From a virus, in the IMG/VR virus record IMGVR_UViG_3300049255_000570, positions 1 to 20,210 of that record: a DNA stretch of 20,210 bases; one strand, 5' to 3'. Every line of letters begins with the position of its first letter. The first letter of the stretch is position 1. Under the pieces are notes generated by a model that searched no databases, had not been told where the DNA came from, and saw only the letters and a program-made list of their open reading frames with translations. The translations under genes were made by a program, and so were the position numbers. This document shows, piece after piece, positions 5,022 through 18,390 of this stretch.

Positions 5022-7040
5022 TCAGGCGACGCCGTAGCGGCGGGCGGCGATGTAATTGACCTTGATCACGGCGGTCGCCGAACCGGCGGCCCCCGACGCG
5101 TTGAAGCCCATGACCAGGGTCGTCTGGAAGTCGACGATGTTGGGCGGCAGGATCACGGGACCGGCGCGCAGGTAGAGCTTGCCGCCGTTGGGCCACGTCA
5201 GCGGGTCGCCGCTGGTCGCGCAGAGTTCCTCGCCCGCGCCGCCGAGGTTCGGCCCGCAGACGACGCTGATGTTCGTGTCGCCGCCCGCGCCCGAGAGATA
5301 GAGCTGGGTCAGATTGACCATGCCGGAGACTTCGAGCTCGGCCTCGAACTCGAATTGCGCGACCCCCAATTCGCTGGATTGAATGTTTTCCGACGTGACG
5401 GTGTCGGAGAACGACATATAGAGCGCCCATTGCTCCGTGGCCGTTCCCGATCCGAGCGAGAACGTGAGCGTCTGGCGCTGGCCCTTCTGGCCGTTGCTCC
5501 AGGGACTTTCGATCGCGGCGGCGATGGTTCCCGCCGCCGATCCGCCGTAGCGCGAGAGGCCCCAGCCGGTCGCGTAGGAACCCGAGATCGTCACGCTTCC
5601 GACCGTCGCTGACGCGCTGGCCGCCGCCGAGCCGAAGACCGACACCTTGGCGGTCTTCATATAGGCCCAGGTCACCGAGCCGTCGGTGATCGACGATGAG
5701 GACCCCGTTGGGCCACCGCTAGAAGCCGACGTGCCGGCCACCGTGCAACGATAGACGCTAGTGGCGTTGAAGACCTGTTGCCCCACGGCATAGGCGGTCG
5801 ACGCTTTCCAGGCGACGCCCTCGTAGATATTGCCGCCGGGATTGAGCACCGGGTCGAAGCCGTCGTCGGCGCAGTAGGGGCGCGGGGAGTAGCCGAGCCC
5901 CTGGGGGAAGAACTTCTGCGCCGCCTGGACGATTTCATAGCCCCAATACATCGCCCCGCGCTGTGAAGGGTGCAGGCCGTCTTGGGTGACCGCGTTCGCG
6001 ACGCCGCCCGTTCCGCCGATCGGCCAGAACGTCCCGTTGGTCCCGTCGGTCATGTAGCCGGTCGGGTCGGCGATCATGATCTGGTTGAAGCCGCGCGGGT
6101 TCGCCCAGGTCTCGCCCCGGCAATAGGCTCTGATCCAGCGGTTGACGCGGTGAATGTAGGCGGCGACCGTGCCGGTGAGGAGGGTCGCGCGCGGCGTGAT
6201 GGGGGAGGCGATCACGCGCTTGCCCGCCGCCATCAGCGTCTCGTAGCAGGTCTGCAAATTGGCGATCGTCGTCGCGACCGTGATCGCGCCGTTGGTCGCG
6301 TCGTTGGTCCCGCCGTTGACGAGGAACAGGTCGATCGAACTCGCGAGGCAGTCGGGCAGCCGCGCGACCATGTCGGAGGTCAGACAGCCCGGCACGCCGA
6401 AGGTGCCGGTGCCGCCGTTGACGAGGCTGAGCACGGCGCCCGAGCCGGTCGACGTGTTGATCGTATAGGTGAAGGTGTTGGTCGAGGAATAGCCGGGATT
6501 GGTGACCGTCGCCGCCTTGATGACGCCGCCGGCGATCGTGAGCGTCGCCGTCGCGCCGCTGCTCAGCGTGACGGTGTCGCCGGCGGAATAGCCGGAACCC
6601 CCGGAGACGACGATGATCTTCAGCAGCGAGAGGGCGTATCCGCCGTAGCCTTGCGCCATGTCCCAGTTGAGCGTTCCGAGCGAGAAGGCCTCCGCCCACG
6701 TCAGCATCGACGTGCCTTGCTTCACGACCTTCAAGCTCGGCTGATAGGCCCATGTCACCGAGCCGTCGGTAATCGTATTGGAGGTCCCGCTCGGGCCGCC
6801 GGAGCCCGCCGAAGTCCCCGCCGCCGCGCAGCGATAGGCGTAGCCGCCGTTCTTGACGACCGTGTTGAGCGCATAGGCGGTCGAGGCGGTCCAGGCCGGG
6901 ATGTTGCTCGCGAGCTGCGCCTGGACGGCGATCGAATTGTAGATTGCGTAGAGCGACTGGCCGCCGATGATGGAATCGCCGAGCCCGTTGATCTTGAGGA
7001 CGGATCGATTGAAATCCGAGAAGGGAGGGAGCGCGCTCAT
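5022..7040 (-). CDS. SGNH/GDSL-type esterase tail fibre with two repeated carbohydrate-binding-like modules
   Basis: A 672-aa receptor-binding protein candidate. The SGNH hydrolase blocks are visible: block I NGLGDSIIGGQS with nucleophile S23, a probable block II glycine in DMAQGYGGYAL (~128-136), block III LVNGGTNDATNG with N246, and block V TQDGLHPSQ with D354/H357. A CBM5/12-like module (AWTASTAYALNTVVKNGGYAYR ... ITDGSVTWAY, ~49-100) is inserted between blocks I and III, and a near copy (AWKASTAYAVGQQVF ... ITDGSVTWAY, ~410-460) follows the catalytic domain. Residues ~142-205 hold a VSGGSGYSAGDTVTLSS module. The C-terminal ~200 residues are a beta-rich lectin-like domain. The likely role is deacetylation of cell-surface polysaccharide during adsorption. 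There is no signal peptide, unlike its neighbours. The start at 7040 has a GGGGGA-type site upstream. Confidence 0.8.
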   Translation of the reverse strand: MSALPPFSDFNRSVLKINGLGDSIIGGQSLYAIYNSIAVQAQLASNIPAWTASTAYALNTVVKNGGYAYRCAAAGTSAGSGGPSGTSNTITDGSVTWAYQPSLKVVKQGTSMLTWAEAFSLGTLNWDMAQGYGGYALSLLKIIVVSGGSGYSAGDTVTLSSGATATLTIAGGVIKAATVTNPGYSSTNTFTYTINTSTGSGAVLSLVNGGTGTFGVPGCLTSDMVARLPDCLASSIDLFLVNGGTNDATNGAITVATTIANLQTCYETLMAAGKRVIASPITPRATLLTGTVAAYIHRVNRWIRAYCRGETWANPRGFNQIMIADPTGYMTDGTNGTFWPIGGTGGVANAVTQDGLHPSQRGAMYWGYEIVQAAQKFFPQGLGYSPRPYCADDGFDPVLNPGGNIYEGVAWKASTAYAVGQQVFNATSVYRCTVAGTSASSGGPTGSSSSITDGSVTWAYMKTAKVSVFGSAAASASATVGSVTISGSYATGWGLSRYGGSAAGTIAAAIESPWSNGQKGQRQTLTFSLGSGTATEQWALYMSFSDTVTSENIQSSELGVAQFEFEAELEVSGMVNLTQLYLSGAGGDTNISVVCGPNLGGAGEELCATSGDPLTWPNGGKLYLRAGPVILPPNIVDFQTTLVMGFNASGAAGSATAVIKVNYIAARRYGVA
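5652..5813 (-). repeat. carbohydrate-binding-like module, copy 2 (coding)
   Basis: Encodes residues ~410-463 of the SGNH fibre, just after the catalytic domain. It is the partner of the module at 6735-6896, with the same aromatic and SGGP/ITDGSVTWAY landmarks. Confidence 0.75.
6735..6896 (-). repeat. carbohydrate-binding-like module, copy 1 (coding)
   Basis: Encodes residues ~49-102 of the SGNH fibre. It shares AW.ASTAYA, YRC..AGTSA.SGGP.G and ITDGSVTWAY with the copy at 5652-5813 and interrupts the esterase domain between its GDS and GTND blocks. Confidence 0.75.
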
Positions 7041-7769: not shown

Positions 7770-8615
7770 TCACTCGGCGTGCGCGAGCGCGGCTTCGATG
7801 GCGCCGCGGGTTTCGACCCCCACCCATCCGTCGACGAAACAATGATGCCCGGCTTGGAAGCTCTTGACAGCCGCCACCGTCGCGGGGCCGCAGTCGCCAT
7901 CGACCGCCAGCGGCGGATGCGCGCCCAGCCGGTTCAGCGCGGCCTGGATGTCGTCGACGCTGAGGATTTTCGGCTGCGCTTCGTGGTCTTCATGGGCGGT
8001 TTGGAGCGGCGGCGGCGCGCTCGCGACGGGCGCCGCAGGCGCCGCGCCCCGCAGCGATTCGACGCGCGCCAGCATGTCCGGCTTGGACACTTTCGATCCC
8101 GGGCACGCGTGGTGATCGCGCGCGCAGTCATGATGGAAATGCAGGCCGCGCTCCCCGCTCACGAAGTCCGAAAGGTCGCCCCAAGCGAATTTTTCGCTCA
8201 AGGCGGCGAGGACCACCGCCGCGTTGTCGCGCACCTTCGCGCCCTCGCCTGACGCGAAATCATCGCCGCCGACCTCGTAATTGCCGACCATCTCAATGCC
8301 GAACGTCTCCGAGTTCCAGCAAGAGACGGAAACGCCCGATTTCGTGAGGTCGCAGAGCGCCCAGACATAGTCGGGGCACACGACGAGATGTGGGCCGGCG
8401 TGCCAACCCATGCCCTGATAATAGCGGTTGAGATTTCCGCCCCATCGCTCCTGCGGCGTCGCGCCCATGCCGAGCCATTGTTTGAGCGAGGGCACGCCGG
8501 TGTTGTGAAGCGTCGGGAATCGCGGCAGCCACTCGCCGAGCGGGAGCCGCGCGAGCATCGCGCGGAATTCACTTACCGTATAATGCGTGGGCGGGTTGAG
8601 GAACGTCGGAGTCAT
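7770..8615 (-). CDS. N-acetylmuramoyl-L-alanine amidase endolysin with C-terminal peptidoglycan-binding domain
   Basis: A 281-aa modular lysin. Residues ~30-175 are an amidase_2 zinc domain: TLHNTGVPSLKQWLG with zinc ligand H37, WHAGPHLVVCPDYVWALCDL, NSETFGIEMVGNYE with E108, and GLHFHHDCARDHHACPG with ligands around H161 and C171. A Pro/Ala linker (~190-205) leads to a PG_binding_1 domain (~218-278): VDDIQAALNRLG, LAVDGDCGPATVAAVKSFQA, GWVGVETRGAIEAAL. It would cleave the amide bond between MurNAc and L-Ala at lysis. The ATG at 8615 has GAGAGG 6 nt upstream. There is no signal peptide, so release would need a holin; a candidate lies at 1-222. It sits inside the appendage gene block rather than beside the holin. 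Confidence 0.92.
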   Translation of the reverse strand: MTPTFLNPPTHYTVSEFRAMLARLPLGEWLPRFPTLHNTGVPSLKQWLGMGATPQERWGGNLNRYYQGMGWHAGPHLVVCPDYVWALCDLTKSGVSVSCWNSETFGIEMVGNYEVGGDDFASGEGAKVRDNAAVVLAALSEKFAWGDLSDFVSGERGLHFHHDCARDHHACPGSKVSKPDMLARVESLRGAAPAAPVASAPPPLQTAHEDHEAQPKILSVDDIQAALNRLGAHPPLAVDGDCGPATVAAVKSFQAGHHCFVDGWVGVETRGAIEAALAHAE

Positions 8616-9381: not shown

Positions 9382-10164
9382 CTAGGCTCCAATGTAATTG
9401 AGGGTGAGAAGGACGCGGGCCGCCTGCGAGGGCGCGACGCGGCCATCCAGCGTGGTCACGATGGCGAGGGCGTCGAACTTGCCCGGCGCGAATCCAGTCA
9501 AGGTCACGCCTGCGATGACGCCGTTGCGCGCGGCATAGGGATTGAGCGGCGAGATGACCGGGCGCATCCCCGATTTCAGACGCGGCTCCGAAATCGAAAA
9601 GGGCGTGACCGGCTGCGAAAGCCCGATCGTCGCCTGCCCGGAGAAGGCGGAGGAGATCGACGCCGGCGCGTTGGACGAGACGAAGCCAGATGTCGCGGCC
9701 GCGCCGTCGGATAGGGTCCATTGACCCGCGCCGTTGCTCTCGAACTCGAGGAAGCCATAGGGGGCGCTGATCGTCGTGGAATAGAGGCCGGCGACGACAT
9801 CCGTGCCCTGGGGCATGGCGACGATGGGCTTGGCGAAAGAAGCCGTTCCGGTCTCGTCGATGATCAGCAGCCGCGCGCCCGCCTGGAAGCTCGCCGCGGC
9901 GGGCAAGGTGACGAAGATCGGCGATACGATGGAGACGATCGCGATCAACCGGTCCGTCGTCAACGCGGAATAAGACGCGGAGATCGCGGCACGCGTCACC
10001 TTCGAGACTTCCGACAGTTTCGCCGCCGCCCAACCGCCGGGCGTGACGCCGTCCTGAACCACCAGACGGTTGTTGGTGATGTCGACCACGGTCTCGCGTT
10101 GGGGACCGGTGTAGGCCGCGACATTGGCCGCCGTGTCGCCGCGCAGGCGGAGTTGTTCGCTCAT
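9382..10164 (-). CDS. tail fibre / appendage protein with Mtd-type N-terminal motif
   Basis: A 260-aa structural protein. Residues 1-53 (QLRLRGDTAANVAAYTGPQR, then NNRLVVQDGVTPGGWAAAKL) match the short N-terminal attachment motif found in many tail fibres and in the phage major tropism determinant. Residues ~60-155 (SYSALTTDRLIAIVS ... VTLPAAASFQAGARLLIID ... LEFESNGAGQWTLSDG) form a beta-prism-like module common in fibre proteins. The C-terminal part (SGMRPVISPLNPYAARNGVI, GVTLTGFAPGKFDALAIV) I do not recognise. It directly follows the hub with an ATGA overlap, so it likely attaches to the baseplate. No enzymatic motif is visible. Confidence 0.7.
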   Translation of the reverse strand: MSEQLRLRGDTAANVAAYTGPQRETVVDITNNRLVVQDGVTPGGWAAAKLSEVSKVTRAAISASYSALTTDRLIAIVSIVSPIFVTLPAAASFQAGARLLIIDETGTASFAKPIVAMPQGTDVVAGLYSTTISAPYGFLEFESNGAGQWTLSDGAAATSGFVSSNAPASISSAFSGQATIGLSQPVTPFSISEPRLKSGMRPVISPLNPYAARNGVIAGVTLTGFAPGKFDALAIVTTLDGRVAPSQAARVLLTLNYIGA

Positions 10165-12539
10165 GACGTGAGGTTCCCGAGGTCGAGAGAAGCGGCCGGC
10201 GCCGTCGAGAGATTTCCGAAATCATCGGCGACGTCGCTCGGAATCGAGACGAGCCCGAGATCGACGGGAAAGCCGCTCTCGAGTTGCGCCGCGATCGGCG
10301 ACGTGTCACCCCCGCCCGACGGAATGTATGAGTAGACCGCGCAGGCGGCGAGGCTCTGCGATCCGCCGCCGAAGACGTTGAAGCTCTGAAACTTGAAATA
10401 GAGCGTCTGGCCGATATAATTGGCCGGAAGCGTGTAACTGACGACCGCGGAGTCCAATCGCGCGAAAGGCGCGCCCGCGGCGTGGGCCGAGCTCGCGGTC
10501 CCATAGATGCCGCGCTGCAATCCCGTTAGATTGTAGGCGTTCGGCGCGACGAGCGTCGCGCTCTCGTAGGACAGCAACTCGCCGTCGACCAGCGAGCGAG
10601 TCGCGCCGTTTTGCGCCCCCACCAGCGAAGTGCCGGTCAACGCGCCGCCGCTCTCCGACAGGTTCACGGACAGCGTATCCGCCGAGTCCCAACCCGTCGC
10701 TTGCGTCAGCGCGGCCGTCAGGACGCCCTGGCGCAAGGCTTGCGTGATCGTCGCGATCTGCGAATAGGTGACGTCGTCGAGCGAGACCCAGACGGCCGCG
10801 CCGCCCCAGTTGGGATCGGCTACGCCGCCCGATCCGCCGGAAGCGCCGGCCCAGATTTGCGAGGCGCCCCCGGTCAAAGCGGGCGGCGGCTCCCAGATCA
10901 GCGGCGTATTGACGGGGCTCACCGCGACCGCCTGGTTGGGAAGAAAGCCGGATGGGCCGTTGTTTGGATAAAGCGCCGGGGTCGAGACGCCCACGGTGAG
11001 TTCCTCCGCCGTTACAGTGAGCAATCCCTTGTCGTCCTCCTCGATCGTCGTGATCCGGACGGGATAGTTGGCGAGGCCGAGGTTCGCGTCCGTGATCGTG
11101 ACGATGTCCATGGGATCGAGCAGGCCGTATTCCCAGGACAATTTGAACGTGAAGCGTGCTCTGACATAAAGCCCGCGTTGCAGAATCGTTTGCGCGACGA
11201 TGGGTCCGATATTCACCTCGTCGCAAATTTCGTGGGCCTGGATGGTCGAGCCGACACGCGGGCCGTAGAGCTCGATCTGCGATTGGTCGCGCGCCTCGAC
11301 CGGCGTCGCGCCATATTGATTGGCGCGGGATAGGCATTCGACGCGCTGGATGGTGGGCAGCGAGAACGGATCGAGGCGCGCGGCCTGCACGGGGTCCGTA
11401 TTGCCCTTCTCGTCGACGAAGTCGCTGTCGGTGAGGTTGTAGACGGGCGTGAGGTCCGGGACGTAGCTCGTCGGGATCGCGTAGGTATAGGTGATCGAGA
11501 CGACTTGATCCTCGTCGCCCGCCGCGAACAGATAGGTTCCCTCCGGCGACAACCCGTAGCTTCCCGCCCCCGAGGGCGCGATGGCGCCGATATAGGCGAG
11601 CGCGCCGCCCGTGAAGGCGTATGTAACGCCGCCGTCGGCGACGAATTGCGCGGGAGGGCAGACCGTGATCGAAGGCGGCGGCGTTACGCCGGAGCTCGCC
11701 TGCGCGGGCGTAGGCACGGGGAACTGAACCGTTCGCGCGACGTCCCCCGCCGCGACGGCGGCGTCGCCGAAGGGGATGAATTTCAGTTGGCCGCCGCTCC
11801 AGACCGCCCCGCAATTGAGGATTTGCAGCCAGCGCGAAAGGATGCTCGAACCCTGTTCCTGATCGACGAGGGCGGGGCTGAACGCGAGCCCCATCGCCTT
11901 GCAATAGGTTTGCAGCGAGGCGTCGCCGCCCGATCCGAACAGGGTCGTCGCGTCGATGCTCGCGGCGGAAAAGCCGGCGCCGTATTGCGCGTTCGTCAGG
12001 AAGTCGTTGACGACCAACGCGGGGTCGGCGTCGACGCCATTGACGCCCGAGCCCGCGAGCGCGCCGAGAATCTCGAAATTGTGGTTGCCGATATTCGCGT
12101 TGTCGCCGAGCTGATAGCTCGCCGCGCAGACATAGCAAGTGCCCTGATAGGCGAGGGCTTGCGCGGGGTATTTTGATGAGAGATAGCCCCAGACCGCCTG
12201 CGGCGTGGTCCCGTTGAACAGGCTGAGCCCGAGCTGCGCGATTGTATAGGTCGATTGGTCCTTCCAGATGATTCCAATCCCCGAGATGGGGCCTTCGCAC
12301 AGCGCCATGATGAGGTCGGCGGTATAGGTGTAGGTCGAGGCGCCTGGGCTCCCGAACAATCCGCCCTTGCCGCCGCCTCCACCGCCCTGAGTCTGGAAAT
12401 TCTGATACCAGATGACGTTGGCCGCCGCTTTCGTTTGCCCCCAGACGATCGGCACCGGCAGCGTGTTGACCGAGGTCTGGAGTTGCAGGCCCGTGTAATC
12501 CGGCTTGGTCGAGGCCTTGGACGCGCGGAACCAACTCAT
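10161..12539 (-). CDS. central tail hub / tip protein, Phage-tail_3 family (RcGTA gp15 C-terminal part-like)
   Basis: A 792-aa hub protein, counterpart of lambda gpJ and of the non-TIM part of RcGTA gp15. N-terminus: NTLPVPIVWGQTKAAANVIW, then a Gly-rich loop (QGGGGGGKGGLFG, 51-63) and TADLIMALCEGPISGIGIIW, all typical of these hubs. Residues ~170-260 carry NDFLTNAQYGAGF and RWLQILNCGAVWSGGQLKFI. Residues ~298-353 are an inserted beta module (FVADGGVTYAF ... GTYLFAAGDEDQVVSITYTY) resembling one in the tail tube. Middle: RVECLSRANQYGATPVEARD and WEYGLLDPMDIVTITDANLG. C-terminal beta domains include DGELLSYESATL and LTGLQRGIYGT. There is no TIM barrel; that domain is encoded separately at 14590-17061. 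It starts by ATGA overlap with the peptidase gene and ends by ATGA overlap with the next gene. Confidence 0.88.
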   Translation of the reverse strand: MSWFRASKASTKPDYTGLQLQTSVNTLPVPIVWGQTKAAANVIWYQNFQTQGGGGGGKGGLFGSPGASTYTYTADLIMALCEGPISGIGIIWKDQSTYTIAQLGLSLFNGTTPQAVWGYLSSKYPAQALAYQGTCYVCAASYQLGDNANIGNHNFEILGALAGSGVNGVDADPALVVNDFLTNAQYGAGFSAASIDATTLFGSGGDASLQTYCKAMGLAFSPALVDQEQGSSILSRWLQILNCGAVWSGGQLKFIPFGDAAVAAGDVARTVQFPVPTPAQASSGVTPPPSITVCPPAQFVADGGVTYAFTGGALAYIGAIAPSGAGSYGLSPEGTYLFAAGDEDQVVSITYTYAIPTSYVPDLTPVYNLTDSDFVDEKGNTDPVQAARLDPFSLPTIQRVECLSRANQYGATPVEARDQSQIELYGPRVGSTIQAHEICDEVNIGPIVAQTILQRGLYVRARFTFKLSWEYGLLDPMDIVTITDANLGLANYPVRITTIEEDDKGLLTVTAEELTVGVSTPALYPNNGPSGFLPNQAVAVSPVNTPLIWEPPPALTGGASQIWAGASGGSGGVADPNWGGAAVWVSLDDVTYSQIATITQALRQGVLTAALTQATGWDSADTLSVNLSESGGALTGTSLVGAQNGATRSLVDGELLSYESATLVAPNAYNLTGLQRGIYGTASSAHAAGAPFARLDSAVVSYTLPANYIGQTLYFKFQSFNVFGGGSQSLAACAVYSYIPSGGGDTSPIAAQLESGFPVDLGLVSIPSDVADDFGNLSTAPAASLDLGNLTS

Positions 12540-12988
12540 GCGCCGGGCCTCCCATAGCTTGCGTATTTCGCGGCCGGCAGCCGCGCCGCGATTTCGGCGT
12601 TGCGCGCGACCTCTTCCTCCAGCACGACGCGGGCGGGATGGAAGGCGTGAACGATCGTGAGCGGATCGGCGTGGGTGACGATCCCGCCATGGCTGTAGCA
12701 GCGGCCGTATTTGAACAGGATCACGTCGCCGGGGAGCGGGGCGGCGACCTCACGCGCGCGGGCGAGGAGAAAGCCGAGATAGCGCTCCTCGCTCCGATGC
12801 AGGTGCCAGTCCCGGACATAGGGGCGCGGGTCGAACGGCTCAACGAGGCCGAGGTCGCAGAACACGCGCACCAGCAGCATCGCGCAATCGCAGCCGGCGC
12901 CTTTGACGTCGGCCATGTGATGATAAGGCGTGCCGATCCAGTCGCGCGCGGCGGCGACGATGGCGGCGCGGTCGGGGGCGGTGGGCAT
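12536..12988 (-). CDS. NlpC/P60 tail peptidase (RcGTA gp14-like)
   Basis: A 150-aa cysteine peptidase expected to cut peptidoglycan peptides during cell entry, carried on the tail tip. Family pattern: ARDWIGTPYHHMADVKGAGC then DCAMLLVRVF with catalytic Cys35, LPGDVILFKYGRCYSHGGIV with His100, and a third polar residue near TIVHAFHPAR (His114 or His117). The length matches the phage/GTA NlpC family. I choose the ATG at 12988 because GGAG sits 7 nt upstream; an in-frame ATG at 13006 would add six residues but has AAGG directly abutting it. The stop overlaps the hub gene start (ATGA). The upstream gap is filled by a palindromic repeat. Confidence 0.9.
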   Translation of the reverse strand: MPTAPDRAAIVAAARDWIGTPYHHMADVKGAGCDCAMLLVRVFCDLGLVEPFDPRPYVRDWHLHRSEERYLGFLLARAREVAAPLPGDVILFKYGRCYSHGGIVTHADPLTIVHAFHPARVVLEEEVARNAEIAARLPAAKYASYGRPGA

Positions 12989-13011
12989 GGGGGAACTCCG
13001 CCTCATCCTTT

Positions 13012-13109: not shown

Positions 13110-13979
13110 TCAATACGCGATCTGGGGCGGGGGCACGAAGGGGAAGCCGCGGAAGTTGGCGAGGTTGTTGAAGCGGCTCTGGCAGGTCGCGCGCGTATGA
13201 TCGCAGCCGGCGTAGACCGTGAAGGCGTCGCCCGCGGCGGACGGCGAGGGCAGGGGATAGACCAGCGTCATCGACACGCCGGCGGCGACGCTCTTGACCG
13301 TCGCGCGCGTGTTCGCGTTCACGCCCGAGGTGAAGACGATCGAGCCCTGGGCCTGGCTCGCGAGGGCGCCGGCGAATGCGATCACGCTCGCCGTCGAGCC
13401 CGCGCCCACGCTTCCCGCGGTCGCGTAGGTTCCTCGCACGACGCCGCAGCCGGCGTCGTAATGCGTGTGCAGGCAGGTCGGCGAATAGAGGTTCCTCGGC
13501 ATGTCGTAGTCGAGCACGACGAGGTCCGAGGCGATCGTCAGCGTCGCGCTGGTGCGGCCGACCCGATCCACCGTCGACACGCGGCCGTGGAACAGCGTCA
13601 CGCCACCCACGGGAGTCTGGCCCAACGCCGTCATGAAGACGCGGTCGCGCCGCACGGTCGCGCCGTCCATGGCGCCATCCCGCAACGCATTGAGGAAAGG
13701 CGAGCCGTTGAGGAGATCGGCCGGGCGCGCCGCGATCGTGATCTGTTGCTTGTCGACCTCCAGTCCGACCGAGGCCTTGTATTTGAGGCCCTGGACGAGC
13801 GGGCCGCTCGCGGAAAAGGTGAACCCGTTGTAGACGACGGGCTGATCCACGTTGGTGTAGGTCAGCACGATCCCGGTCGAGAGCGTGAAGGTGAAACAAT
13901 CGGCGAAGGCGATCGGCGCGTCGGGATCGGCGCGCGCGGCGTTGAGGAACGCGATGAGAGCGGTCGAGGCGGTTTTCAT
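13110..13979 (-). CDS. DUF2163 / phage_BR0599 baseplate hub protein (RcGTA gp13-like)
   Basis: A 289-aa protein of the DUF2163 family, the RcGTA gp13 hub layer beneath the distal tail ring. The N-terminal half has DCFTFTLSTGIVLTYTNVD and NGFTFSASGPLVQGLKYK; the central part YDMPRNLYSPTCLHTHYDAG; and the C-terminus the signature GCDHTRATCQSRFNNLANF then RGFPFVPPP. Cysteines at C169, C178, C259 and C266 sit in two C-x(6-8)-C pairs typical of this family. Lambda gpL, a functional counterpart, binds an iron-sulfur cluster through cysteines, so metal or cluster binding is plausible here but is inference. The start at 13979 is by ATGA overlap. Downstream the run of overlapping genes is broken by a ~100-nt palindromic repeat before the peptidase gene. 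Confidence 0.9.
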   Translation of the reverse strand: MKTASTALIAFLNAARADPDAPIAFADCFTFTLSTGIVLTYTNVDQPVVYNGFTFSASGPLVQGLKYKASVGLEVDKQQITIAARPADLLNGSPFLNALRDGAMDGATVRRDRVFMTALGQTPVGGVTLFHGRVSTVDRVGRTSATLTIASDLVVLDYDMPRNLYSPTCLHTHYDAGCGVVRGTYATAGSVGAGSTASVIAFAGALASQAQGSIVFTSGVNANTRATVKSVAAGVSMTLVYPLPSPSAAGDAFTVYAGCDHTRATCQSRFNNLANFRGFPFVPPPQIAY

Positions 13980-14593
13980 GACGTCCGCACCGAGCGGAAT
14001 TTGAGGCTCTCGACCTTCCAGAGATTGGCCATCACATTCTCGAAGTCGAGGTTGTCGTCGTCGAACCGGCATTCGAAGGCGTAGCTGAACGACGCGGCGA
14101 TCGCCGCGCCGCTCGCCGGGGCGGTCGCGAAGACGAGGCTGTTGGGCGTCGCGAGCGACCAGCCCGAGGCTTGCGCGACGCCGCCGACGGTGACTTGCGA
14201 GACGGCTGTCACCCAGCCGGCCGGCTCGACGAAACCGCCGAGCGCCCTGACGAAAGTGAAGCTGGTCGTCGCGCCGTCGCCGATCGCGAGCGTCTGGCCG
14301 GCGATCGCATTGTCCGACGGGTCCGTGTAGAGGAACGTGCCGAGGGAGCCCTGGCATTGCAGGAACAGCCCCATGAGGCTCTGTAGCGACTGCGCGCCGA
14401 GCCCGGGATACGAGGTCGAATCCGAGCCGAGCCCGTCGAACGTCGCCTCGAATTGCCAGATCGGATACTGGTAATTGGCGTAACGGACCTCGCGCCCCGA
14501 AACATGGGGGGCGACGATCGTCGACCACGTGGGCTTCTTGTGGACGCTCCAGCCTTGGCCGGGAAGCGTGGGGAAGACGGGCGGCGTGCTCAT
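13976..14593 (-). CDS. DUF2460 distal tail protein (RcGTA gp12-like)
   Basis: A 205-aa stand-alone DUF2460 protein. In RcGTA the homologue gp12 forms the distal tail ring that joins the tube to the baseplate hub. Diagnostic segments are PVFPTLPGQGWSVHKKPTW at the N-terminus, SGREVRYANYQYPIWQFEA, AIAGQTLAIGDGATTSFTFV near the middle, and FECRFDDDNLDFENVMANLW at the C-terminus. It aligns along its whole length with the C-terminal ~200 residues of the preceding TIM-barrel fusion (FPT.../FPA..., GQTL.GDGAT.SF, DF..FMA.L-like ending), so the two are paralogous. It starts by ATGA overlap with the fusion gene and ends by ATGA overlap with the DUF2163 gene, suggesting coupled translation. Confidence 0.88.
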   Translation of the reverse strand: MSTPPVFPTLPGQGWSVHKKPTWSTIVAPHVSGREVRYANYQYPIWQFEATFDGLGSDSTSYPGLGAQSLQSLMGLFLQCQGSLGTFLYTDPSDNAIAGQTLAIGDGATTSFTFVRALGGFVEPAGWVTAVSQVTVGGVAQASGWSLATPNSLVFATAPASGAAIAASFSYAFECRFDDDNLDFENVMANLWKVESLKFRSVRTS

Positions 14594-17061
14594 GGGCGCG
14601 TCGTCACCAGCTTCACGATGCGCAGTTCGAACAGCATCGCCATGAACTCCTCGAAATCGACCACGTCGTGCGCGAAGCGGCAGAGCCACAGCGCGCCGAA
14701 GTCGGCCGAAACGATCGCGCCGGCCTCGGGCGGGCTCGCGAACAGAATCGCGGGCGCGTAGCCCGGCGTGACCGACCAGGCCGAGCCGGGCAGGGCGGCG
14801 CCGTTCACATAGACCGCCGTCACGCCGGACGTCCCGGCGACGGGCTCGAAATAGCTTCCGAACGATCGCATTAGCGGGAAGCTCGCCGTCGCGCCGTCCC
14901 CGACGCCGAGCGTCTGGCCGCTGAAGATCGAGAGGCCGGGCGGAGCGAGCCAAAAGGGCGCAGCGGCGCCGGCGGCTTGATTAAAGAAGCCCGCGATCGC
15001 CTGCATTTCGAGATCGACGGCGCCGGAGCGCAGGAGATCGTAGGTCAGTTCGATATCATAGAACGCCGCGGCGAAGCGCGGCTGGCGCGTCGATCGGCCC
15101 GATACATGATCGACGGCGCCGGTCGCGAAGCGCGGCTTCAAATGCGTCGACCAACCCAGCGTCGCGATCGCGGGAAAACTCGGATACGCCCCCGGGGACG
15201 GCGCCGGCGAGGCCGCGAGCGGCGGCAGCGCGGGGCCGCGGCCGTTCAGCCAGTTGCCCGCCTGCCAGTCGCCCGCGTCGCCCCATTGGCTCGCCAGAAT
15301 GGGAAAGACGGGGAACGGCCGCGCGTCCCAGTTCCAGACGCAGCTAAACGCGAATTGCAGCATCGCGACGCCGCTCGCGGAGACGGCGTTGTTCGCATCC
15401 GTCACCCAATATTGATAGATCGCTTGCAGCGCCAGGGTCGAGATCGTGTCGTCGCGTCGCGGGATTTGGCCGCCGCCGGGGATCGGCTGCCAGATCGACC
15501 AATAGGGCGTCGCGCTCTCGACCGATTTCGCGTCGAAGAACACGTTGGGCTGATTGGTTCCCTTGTCGCAGGAGGGGATGCCGTATTCGATGAAGGCGAT
15601 CGACTTGGATTGAGGAACCCATTCGGTCGCGGGCCCATGCGGCGCCCAGCCGAGGCCGTCGCCCGCGTCGTAGATCGCCTGATGCGTATTGTTCCACCAC
15701 CAGCGCAACTGCTTGTTGGCGAGGATCTGTTGGCCGGCGAAATAGGGGTTCCGCGCCTGAGCGAGCCGATCGCCCTCGGGGAGTGAGACGATGAGATCGG
15801 AGCCGGCGGGATCGAGCCCCGCGCCCCCGTTGGCGCCATCGGAATAGTACCAATCGAATTTCTCGCCGCCCTCTATGTTGGCTTGCAAATAGGGAATCGA
15901 ATATATCGTAGGGGCGCCGGAGAGCCCGAGACCGGTCTGTTGCGCCGGCGGCCAGGAGCCGCCCGGCGCGGGCGCTAGCCAGTTGACGGCGTCCAATCCG
16001 CCGTCGCCCGTCGTCCAGTCCGACAGCGGGAGATAATTGTCGAAGCCGGCGATATCGATATCGGGCGACGCCCATAGGGAGTCGAGATGCGGCCATTGGC
16101 CGTTCGCGTTCTCGTGCTGATAGCCCATCCAATCCGACCAGTCGGCGGAATAGGCGATCAGGTTCGTCAGCGCCGTCAGGTTCTTGGTCAGGCCCTGCCC
16201 ATCGAAAATCGAGCGGACATCGCTCGCGAGCTGGACGAGGCCCGCGACAAAGGGATAGTCCCAGACCGCGTTCCCCGACGCGCCGGCCGTGCCGGCCGGC
16301 GTCCAGCCGGGTCCCCGGATCGTTTCCAGCCCGCGCAATTCCGAGCCGAGCAGGAACAGGTCGACGCCGCCCGCGACCACGCAGAGCCATGCGTAATGCA
16401 GGATCATGCGCCGATACGTATAATCCGCCGCCGCGCCGGCGTAGGCGACCGTCAGATTGACGGCGTCTGGGGTGAATTGCGAGGGCGCCGCCGAGCCGAG
16501 GAACGCGTTCGCGGCGCTGGCCGCCGCCGCGCTGACGTCGGGCGCATAAGTTATCAAGCCGCGCCAGGGATATCCGGGCGCCGTCATCAGCAGGAACGGA
16601 TAGAACACGACCTTGAGGCCGCGCGACTTCAGATCGCGAATGCAGCGAACGACGCTCTGATCCGAGGGCGTGCCGCCGTAGACGAAGCTCGAGCCGTTCA
16701 TCGGGATGGGTATCAGCCCCGTCGAGTTCTGGTTCAGACTCGACACACGCCAGAGGTCCGCGCCGCCCGCGCTCTGCTGGAACGCGCCGCCGATATAGGT
16801 GGTCGAGGGATAGACATGGCACGCGCCGGCGGCGAGCGAATCACAGAACCACGCGCAGACGATGGAAACGGTCGCGCATTCGGGATGCGCGGCCTGGAGT
16901 TGATCGATCGCGTAGCTGTAGTCGGTCTTGGCGCCGCCCGGCGCGAAGAACGTGTTGAGCGGCGATAGGCTCGCGCCCAGGCGCGCGCCCTCATGGGCTA
17001 CCGTGTCATAAGTGAACTCGCCGGTGGCTGGCAGCAGGTGGACGCCCGGAATATAGCCCAT
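14590..17061 (-). CDS. GTA-type TIM-barrel protein fused to a C-terminal DUF2460 distal-tail domain
   Basis: This is an 823-aa two-part baseplate protein. Residues 1 to ~600 match the glycoside-hydrolase-like TIM barrel of GTA gp15 (GTA_TIM): TGEFTYDT at 13-20, FVYGGTPSDQSVV, GLKVVFYPFLLM (148-159), GVDLFLLGSELRGLE (232-246), NLIAYSADWSDWMGYQHENA and FIEYGIPSCDKGTNQPN (490-506). E241 and E492 lie where clan GH-A enzymes have their two catalytic acids, but activity is unproven. After a Pro-rich linker (~605-628) residues ~627-823 form a DUF2460 domain, a distal-tail ring protein, with GWSTHLKPRF, GQTLGVGDGATASF and DFEEFMAMLFELRIVKL. The start at 17061 is supported by GAGG overlapping the tape measure stop. 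In RcGTA the barrel instead belongs to gp15 at the end of the cluster, so this is a rearranged architecture. The stop overlaps the next start (ATGA). Confidence 0.88.
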   Translation of the reverse strand: MGYIPGVHLLPATGEFTYDTVAHEGARLGASLSPLNTFFAPGGAKTDYSYAIDQLQAAHPECATVSIVCAWFCDSLAAGACHVYPSTTYIGGAFQQSAGGADLWRVSSLNQNSTGLIPIPMNGSSFVYGGTPSDQSVVRCIRDLKSRGLKVVFYPFLLMTAPGYPWRGLITYAPDVSAAAASAANAFLGSAAPSQFTPDAVNLTVAYAGAAADYTYRRMILHYAWLCVVAGGVDLFLLGSELRGLETIRGPGWTPAGTAGASGNAVWDYPFVAGLVQLASDVRSIFDGQGLTKNLTALTNLIAYSADWSDWMGYQHENANGQWPHLDSLWASPDIDIAGFDNYLPLSDWTTGDGGLDAVNWLAPAPGGSWPPAQQTGLGLSGAPTIYSIPYLQANIEGGEKFDWYYSDGANGGAGLDPAGSDLIVSLPEGDRLAQARNPYFAGQQILANKQLRWWWNNTHQAIYDAGDGLGWAPHGPATEWVPQSKSIAFIEYGIPSCDKGTNQPNVFFDAKSVESATPYWSIWQPIPGGGQIPRRDDTISTLALQAIYQYWVTDANNAVSASGVAMLQFAFSCVWNWDARPFPVFPILASQWGDAGDWQAGNWLNGRGPALPPLAASPAPSPGAYPSFPAIATLGWSTHLKPRFATGAVDHVSGRSTRQPRFAAAFYDIELTYDLLRSGAVDLEMQAIAGFFNQAAGAAAPFWLAPPGLSIFSGQTLGVGDGATASFPLMRSFGSYFEPVAGTSGVTAVYVNGAALPGSAWSVTPGYAPAILFASPPEAGAIVSADFGALWLCRFAHDVVDFEEFMAMLFELRIVKLVTTRP

Positions 17062-17070
17062 CGCGGCGCC

Positions 17071-18390
17071 TCAGGGTCCCGCGAGGCGCCGCGTGCCCAG
17101 ATGGGCGCCGTGCCGCACCGCCTCGTCAATCGCCTTCATCATGGTCGAACTGTTGGCCTTCATCCATTGCGCGACCGAGCCGGAATCGACCGCGGAGATG
17201 TGGAAATGCGTCGCCGGATTCACGTTGACCGTCGCCCGCGCGGGCGACGCGCCCGGCGAGGCCTCGCCCGACAGCATTTCGCGGAACGCGCCGGCCTGCG
17301 CGGCGGGCATGACGAGCTCGTTGTGGTGGACCAGCGTCAGCATGTCCTGGGGCACGCTCCACATGCCGATGTCGGCCGAGGCGACGGAACTCGCGACGGC
17401 GGCGACGGTAGCCTGCGCGCCCGCGGCGGGCCCGGCGGCGAAGGGGCCCATGACCGGGGCGAGAAAGCCGAACACGCCCGCGAAGGCCTCGGCGGCCGAG
17501 GACAGGATCGAGCGGATGATGGTCGCGCCTTGCGTCGCGAGAGAGGCGCCGGCGCCGGCCTGCTCGGCGCCGGTCCGCGCGGCGACCCCCGCGGTCGTCG
17601 CCGAGGTCTTCGCCGCCTCCCCAGCGACATATTGCGCGAGGCTCCGCTCGCACCATTCGATGAATTTGATCAGCAAATCCTCGAGCGTGCTTTTGAAGGC
17701 GGTGTGCCAACTCTCCGTGCCCGAGAGCAGGCCGCGGAGTTGGGAATTGAACGCGCCCGTTATCGTATTTCCGAACGCCTCGTAGTCGCGCTGTTGCGCG
17801 TCGAGCGCCTGTCGCGTGATCGAACTCATCTGATCCTGATGCCGCCGCTCGGCGTCGAGAATCTGGTCCTGTACGCGCTGCTTCTGCGCGAGCTTTTGTC
17901 CATCGAGCGCGCCCTCGCGTTGCAACAGCGCGAGTTCGGCCGCGTATTCCTCGTCGAGCGCGGAGCGCGAGAGCGCGGTCTTCTGTTGCTCGGTGATTTG
18001 ATGCTGACGCGCCTCGCTGGCGTAGAGCGCGAGTTTCTGCTTGAGCCCATCCTGGACGGCCTTGATCTCCTCCGTGATCGCCTCGCGCGCCGCGCGCATC
18101 GCGTCGGCGTAAGAGGCGTCATCGCCAGAGCGGATCGCAGCCGCGGCTTGTGTGTGAGCCGCGGCGAGCGAGGCTTCCAGCGAGGCCGACGCCGACAGCG
18201 CGGAATTGTATCCGCTGAGGTGCGCCGGATCGAAGGCGCGGCCGATCGAGGCGCCGAGCGCGGCATACTGGCCGTTCAACTGCTCGAACGGCGCGGAGAG
18301 GCCGGCGAGCGCGTCGCGCGCGTCGGCGACGCCCGCGACGAGATCGGCGACCGAGGCCGTGAAATTGACGGCGACATTGGCGTCGGACAT
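17071..18390 (-). CDS. tail tape measure protein (lambda C-terminal type)
   Basis: This 439-aa protein fits a short tape measure protein, which fills the tube lumen, sets tail length and is ejected on infection. Residues ~95-205 are a charged, Gln-rich helical stretch (for example AITEEIKAVQDGLKQKLALY and ERRHQDQMSSITRQALDAQQ), a likely coiled coil. Residues ~203-255 (YEAFGNTITGAFNSQLRGLL then LEDLLIKFIEWCERSLAQY) match the pattern of the lambda tape-measure C-terminal family. Residues ~290-345 are hydrophobic and Ala/Gly-rich, a possible membrane-inserting part. The end has VPQDMLTLVHHNELVMPA, common in these proteins. The ATG at 18390 has AAGG about 8 nt upstream. It follows the chaperones by 19 nt and precedes the baseplate genes. 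It is much shorter than lambda gpH, implying a short tail. Confidence 0.82.
   Translation of the reverse strand: MSDANVAVNFTASVADLVAGVADARDALAGLSAPFEQLNGQYAALGASIGRAFDPAHLSGYNSALSASASLEASLAAAHTQAAAAIRSGDDASYADAMRAAREAITEEIKAVQDGLKQKLALYASEARQHQITEQQKTALSRSALDEEYAAELALLQREGALDGQKLAQKQRVQDQILDAERRHQDQMSSITRQALDAQQRDYEAFGNTITGAFNSQLRGLLSGTESWHTAFKSTLEDLLIKFIEWCERSLAQYVAGEAAKTSATTAGVAARTGAEQAGAGASLATQGATIIRSILSSAAEAFAGVFGFLAPVMGPFAAGPAAGAQATVAAVASSVASADIGMWSVPQDMLTLVHHNELVMPAAQAGAFREMLSGEASPGASPARATVNVNPATHFHISAVDSGSVAQWMKANSSTMMKAIDEAVRHGAHLGTRRLAGP

Follow-up and report, generated by a model that had tools for sequence, protein, structure and literature searches.

A TIM barrel of the gene transfer agent type fused to one of two adjacent distal tail proteins in phages of alphaproteobacteria

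In the gene transfer agent (GTA) RcGTA, a hexamer of the distal tail protein (Dit) lies under the tail tube, with a threefold baseplate of hub and megatron proteins (PMC7296036), and in R4C the subunit numbers are six for Dit and three each for hub and megatron (PMC10276861). The RcGTA tailspike contacts both the Dit insertion domain and the triosephosphate isomerase (TIM) barrel of the megatron (PMC13420450). In JBD30, gp49 takes sixfold symmetry down to threefold: it is trimeric, and each chain contains two Dit-type domains besides extra N-terminal ones (PMC11445458). Phages that infect lactococci and other Gram-positive bacteria have an evolved Dit (evoDit), a ring displaying sugar-active, carbohydrate-binding modules. 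Here we analyse a 20,210-base virus record (IMG/VR IMGVR_UViG_3300049255_000570; the window, meaning this whole stretch), which is the source of a fusion between a GTA-type TIM barrel and a Dit-type DUF2460 domain and is not a GTA locus inside a genome. The best explanation of its tail genes, and on balance a probable one, would be a mixed 3+3 Dit ring displaying three barrels that resemble glycoside hydrolase family 113 (GH113).

Read from the head side, the tail genes of the window, all on the minus strand, encode a tape-measure protein, the GTA_TIM-DUF2460 fusion, a stand-alone DUF2460 protein, a DUF2163 hub protein, an NlpC/P60-type peptidase and a 792-residue central hub (Table 1). RcGTA and R4C have the same protein families, arranged alike downstream of the tape measure, and the same barrel and DUF2460 fold. 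Their barrel, however, is part of the megatron, and their only DUF2460 protein forms a homohexamer, whereas here the barrel is carried by a second DUF2460 protein and the hub is barrel-less. Within the fusion, GTA_TIM (PF13547) spans residues 214–587 and the full profile (1–299) at 345 bits, compared to a gathering score of 27, and DUF2460 (PF09343) covers residues 629–819 (profile positions 5–202 of 205) at 86 bits, compared to 30.4. This score, together with an independent match in 29 of 30 relatives, ruled out a chance DUF2460 call. Residues 4–609 align to columns 214–756 of the NCBIfam GTA_megatron model (NF048004), the whole peripheral domain, and the barrel part matches residues 222–772 of RcGTA gp15 (E-value, E, 1.7e-75). 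That model describes a single protein that combines an adhesin domain with peripheral (TIM), central and fibre-binding ones, and its equivalog threshold (>800 bits) was reached neither by the fusion (448 bits) nor by the hub (150 bits); the model for the RcGTA-type Dit (TIGR02217, threshold 136.65 bits) gave 24 bits for the fusion and 30 for the stand-alone protein. A Dit with an added domain is what defines an evolved Dit, and the barrel fused to DUF2460 is of this kind.

The two putative catalytic glutamates, E241 and E492, were unchanged in an alignment of 30 diverse fusions and pair in RcGTA gp15 with the glutamates of 'GTEM' and 'FTEMG' respectively. An AlphaFold2 (AF2) model of the fusion (predicted local distance difference test score, pLDDT, 75) was most similar in the PDB to the R4C megatron (Z 30) and to GH113 mannanases (Z about 20), and its C-terminal domain matched the fold of the R4C distal tail protein (8gtc_G, E 2.4e-8). 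With the Pfam GH113 profile the window fusion scored 20.5 bits, under the gathering score of 27, and 28 of the 30 relatives gave matches at E ≤ 0.01; no sequence-level GH113 alignment was obtained for placing E241 and E492 in GH113 numbering. Barrel and DUF2460 are separated by 15–20 residues between profile matches, with 38% proline overall in 99 fusions, and this linker has a pLDDT under 35 in the model. The initial annotation, made from the sequence alone, had proposed a barrel followed by DUF2460, a place directly after the tape measure, a barrel-less hub and retention of both glutamates, all of which was borne out; none of the findings it had named as contradicting it (no DUF2460, no GTA_TIM, or a second barrel in the hub) emerged from the domain search.

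That annotation had overlooked the stand-alone DUF2460 gene directly downstream, which changes how the fusion is interpreted. Its product scores 150 bits with PF09343 (gathering score 30.4), and its start codon ATG and the TGA that ends the fusion gene share bases in an ATGA (14590–14593). The hub matches the megatron model only outside the barrel (residues 8–158 to columns 47–201, and a C-terminal part), and domain search found no TIM barrel within it and no second barrel elsewhere in the window. Over 78–95% of its length it is 33–44% identical to hubs without a barrel from phages of Brevundimonas, Acinetobacter and Pseudomonas, whereas its resemblance to megatrons extends over only 18–20%. 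Pseudomonas phage KT1 has the plain order of tape measure, DUF2460, DUF2163, NlpC and barrel-less hub. The missing N-terminal 'iris' of the hub was dropped as a notable trait, since a 2026 preprint gives those helices to the tape measure (PMC13420450).

A search for loci related to the fusion gave 61 viral and 7 genome loci, to which an alignment-based scan added more; all counts refer to loci found with the window fusion protein and are no measure of abundance in nature. After removal of near-copies there were 99 fused open reading frames (ORFs); in 93 cases the locus also encodes a separate DUF2460, and the ATGA overlap seen in the window was frequent. None of the 67 fusion loci that contain a hub had a barrel in it. 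The fusion is carried by the genomes of, among others, Methylocapsa sp. S129, Beijerinckia mobilis and Roseiarcus fermentans, the last with two barrel loci that both lie in fusion-sized frames; the hosts are therefore Hyphomicrobiales near Beijerinckiaceae. In about 400 genomes each of the host order and class, the seed Methylocapsa alone, among the matches listed, matched the whole fusion profile, and most other long barrel matches were in frames of about 1300 residues, that is, megatrons. INPHARED phages gave no tblastn match to the fused DUF2460; barrel matches there stop at residue 608, and the siphophage records examined have the canonical barrel-in-megatron gene order. No description of a GTA TIM barrel together with DUF2460 was found in the open-licence PubMed Central papers searched. 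The barrel-on-Dit design is a real, conserved and new form of the evolved-Dit principle, which it would share with evoDit as a Dit ring displaying putatively sugar-active modules, but with an N-terminal enzyme-like barrel on a duplicated Dit in phages of alphaproteobacteria instead of carbohydrate-binding modules.

In a tree of 84 DUF2460 domains, with bootstrap not fully settled, 32 of the 33 fused copies formed one clade (98/98), sister to a group containing the stand-alone copies (93/71), and the single DUF2460 of barrel-in-megatron phages formed a separate clade (100/100). Since the fused copies are one clade sister to the stand-alone ones, the simplest reading of the pair would be one duplication followed by co-inheritance. 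The fused barrels likewise group in a single clade (100/100) that excludes each of the 16 megatron barrels tested, in a midpoint-drawn tree that does not give direction. The view in the initial annotation that the barrel had moved upstream from the hub was not supported: because the hub belongs with barrel-less hubs and the fused barrels lie apart from megatron barrels, it appears more likely that a duplicated Dit in a barrel-less baseplate gained the barrel than that the barrel was cut from the hub.

Variant loci (given by our L numbers) bear on how the pair may be assembled. In L047, the barrel and both DUF2460 domains are in a single open frame, and hence 1:1. An AF2 model of this DUF2460 tandem (pLDDT 78; predicted TM-score, pTM, 0.70) had as best whole-chain Foldseek matches the Chi (8vjh_B, E 9e-11) and JBD30 (8rk3_D, E 7e-9) distal tail proteins, and its second domain matched the R4C Dit (Z 13.7); at the sequence level, too, the DUF2460 profile detects the Chi protein (E 0.002). 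A chain with two Dit domains, as in JBD30 and Chi, was found only in L047, the window having two genes. The likeness to JBD30 gp49 and Chi lies in this tandem chain, with the same domain order in L047, and in a homologous DUF2163 partner, the window DUF2163 protein being homologous to those of both, and JBD30 also has N-terminal accessory domains; here, however, there are usually two genes, a GH-like TIM barrel serves as accessory domain, and the fold match leaves domain orientation open. In L040, L149 and L050 (a near-copy of L042), the barrel-fused domain groups with the stand-alone Dit clade, so that the sole Dit itself bears the barrel; in L040 and L050 it also has extra inserted domains. 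L058 (10001–12472) has the same barrel clade on a Dit of another family, phrog_1302, positioned after the hub and not after the tape measure; phrog_1302 is annotated as distal tail protein, and its gene directly follows the tape measure in phiPSA1 and PY54. Several fused copies (for example in L065, L067 and L039) have no insertion domain but keep the ring core, a loss that probably occurred at least twice because L065 sits apart from other such rows in the tree. Judged by these copies, which lost just the insertion domain, selection is keeping the ring core.

We propose that two paralogous DUF2460 proteins, encoded side by side, would build the Dit ring, one of them plain and the other with an N-terminal GH113-like TIM barrel on a proline-rich linker of about 20 residues. 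The two would alternate 3+3 in a single pseudo-sixfold ring linking a tail tube of sixfold symmetry to a DUF2163/hub baseplate of threefold symmetry, and three barrels would encircle the tail end, to bind and probably cut host surface polysaccharide during adsorption. By analogy with the described tail ends, the barrel protein is likely to be located on the Dit ring, the more so because the barrel is also found on sole Dits (L040, L042, L106, L149) and on the other-family Dit of L058. If it is there, the 3+3 arrangement would be fairly probable: alternation is suggested by the analogy with JBD30, the fold match of the L047 tandem and the homologous DUF2163, and a separate DUF2460 sits in the same operon, so that three barrels would be kept as in RcGTA and R4C. 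Placement of the barrels on the distal tail ring, as the initial annotation had it, thus gains from the fusion to a Dit-type domain, but the change in copy number and geometry it expected is doubtful. Relative to RcGTA, what has changed may be less the position of the barrel than its covalent attachment, since there the barrel and the Dit ring are already close, sharing a tailspike (PMC13420450). From the model and the conserved residues, host-surface polysaccharide is a likely substrate and enzymatic activity is plausible; the barrel probably clears or grips the sugar coat of soil bacteria.

Several points weigh against this proposal. According to PMC13420450, GTA-type TIM barrels have no known function. 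In L040, L042, L106 and L149 the fused DUF2460 is the sole copy found, which would also allow an all-barrel ring with six barrels, and L107 has no barrel and a single plain Dit. Superposed on JBD30 and Chi, the L047 tandem model gives TM-scores of 0.30–0.33 and a whole-chain root-mean-square deviation of about 9 Å, so that the predicted match agrees in domain order and fold and does not establish relative orientation. Moreover, nine alignment rows behind that model join two genes by stop-codon read-through, and supplied only homologous residues; such in-frame rows were used because stand-alone DUF2460 rows seemingly aligned onto the first DUF2460 of the tandem.

Of the other arrangements, two stacked homohexameric rings, with six barrel-DUF2460 subunits between the tail tube and a stand-alone DUF2460 hexamer and hence six barrels, would make the order tape measure, barrel-DUF2460, DUF2460, DUF2163 collinear from head to tip; the RcGTA and R4C Dits are homohexamers, and the single-copy variants indicate that a homomeric barrel-bearing ring can exist. 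We nevertheless consider this unlikely, since JBD30, with a homologous baseplate and a tandem Dit among the closest fold matches, has one ring of three tandem chains, and the single chain of L047 would need to span two layers. It is less probable still that the fused DUF2460 is no ring subunit but a docking module clipping up to three barrels outside a normal stand-alone hexamer: the fused copy is dispensable, being absent in L107 and without its insertion domain in several lineages, but what those lineages retain is the ring core and not the peripheral insertion domain, and in the sole-Dit and phrog_1302 variants the barrel is on a Dit in any case. A split megatron, its barrel excised and transplanted to Dit so that six ring barrels replace three at the tip, would account for barrel protein and hub jointly covering the megatron profile with little overlap, but is very improbable given the closeness of the hub to barrel-less hubs, fused barrels not nested among megatron barrels and the presence of a separate DUF2460.

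The mixed ring, with an enzyme-carrier Dit alternating 3+3 with a plain one, could then be the two-gene counterpart of the JBD30 tandem, with the same barrel clade on at least three Dit-type domains, which by sequence would be the fused paralogue, the stand-alone-type Dit and the phrog_1302-type Dit; this wider formulation we offer tentatively, as nearly balanced between right and wrong.

Other modules occur on DUF2460 as well. L061 (1461–3149 and 5171–6838) and L062 lack a barrel; each locus encodes two DUF2460 proteins that carry other modules, one a C-terminal glycine-rich region and the other an N-terminal SPRY-like domain (weak match) and repeats. In the isolated Brevundimonas phage Polewnik (L185:2152–4602), a glycine-rich (ALK_LTK_GRD-like) module is N-terminal to DUF2460. 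In the GTA-like clusters L203 (5222–7504) and L204 (6047–8395), from two bacterial genomes, the only DUF2460 found forms the C-terminal part of a protein that also has NCTSP_N and a non-contractile tail sheath TIM barrel (PF23845, E 8e-166), and DUF2163 and hub genes adjoin; an N-terminal TIM barrel on the Dit is shared with the window fusion, but the barrel is of another family and there is no second DUF2460, and by its domain content this is an independent barrel-on-Dit fusion. Across the variant loci, DUF2460 proteins look like a platform for added modules with a conserved ring core and exchangeable cargo.

Some further observations concern the same families. Stand-alone DUF2460 proteins with inserts of about 110–210 residues in the insertion-domain region are encoded at L002:4578–5534, L016:5213–6175, L020:3590–4705 and L045:1846–3099, and the inserts have no Pfam match except a weak one in L045. 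Stand-alone GTA_TIM genes of about 730 codons (L201:6278–8479, L202 and L207) stand in retrieved stretches where no further tail domain was detected, and that of L201 is near a cytochrome b561 gene. Plain DUF2460 proteins at L072:5381–6007, L103:3372–4001 and in phrog_2913 are labelled 'glycoside hydrolase', possibly carried over from barrel-DUF2460 fusions. In the window itself, 5022–7040 encodes a GDSL lipase/acylhydrolase with two CBM_5_12 stretches amid tail genes, 7770–8615 an endolysin (amidase_2 and a peptidoglycan-binding domain) and 9382–10164 a tail protein with Mtd_N (major tropism determinant N-terminal).

Table 1. Baseplate genes and fusion domains in the window, with the basis of each assignment (positions are those of the window).
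Feature	Position	Strand	Basis
Tape-measure protein, 439 aa, directly upstream of the fusion	17071..18390	-	phrog_2854 tail length tape measure, E 1.2e-14
GTA_TIM-DUF2460 fusion protein (P0001), 823 aa	14590..17061	-	Pfam GTA_TIM E 5e-103, DUF2460 E 2.6e-24; AF2 model
TIM-barrel (megatron peripheral domain) part, residues 1–608	15238..17061	-	NF048004 columns 214–756; RcGTA gp15
Glu241 codon, putative catalytic (acid/base position, inferred)	16339..16341	-	Invariant in 30 fusions
Glu492 codon, putative catalytic (nucleophile position, inferred)	15586..15588	-	Invariant in 30 fusions
Pro/Ala-rich linker, residues 609–628	15178..15237	-	Gap between profile matches; low pLDDT
C-terminal DUF2460 (Dit-type) domain, residues 629–819	14605..15177	-	Pfam DUF2460; fold match 8gtc_G
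Stand-alone DUF2460 distal tail protein (P0003), 205 aa	13976..14593	-	Pfam DUF2460 E 5.9e-44
DUF2163 baseplate hub protein (gp13-like, attachment domain and BR0599)	13110..13979	-	TIGR02218 above cut-off, E 1.2e-29; PF09931, PF09356
NlpC/P60-type cell wall peptidase (gp14-like)	12536..12997	-	TIGR02219 E 3.2e-18, under its cut-off
Central hub/tip protein without TIM barrel (P0002), 792 aa	10161..12539	-	Phage-tail_3 E 4e-31, Rcc01698_C E 5e-17

In these phages the barrel is uncoupled from the hub, and its deletion, exchange or purification could hence leave the central tip intact. The DUF2460 gene pair is relevant to the question of how tail tube (sixfold) and baseplate (threefold) are fitted together, and the existence of barrel-DUF2460 fusions may explain the glycoside hydrolase annotation on plain DUF2460 proteins. 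Altogether, in our survey Dit looks like a general carrier of additional modules among phages of alphaproteobacteria.

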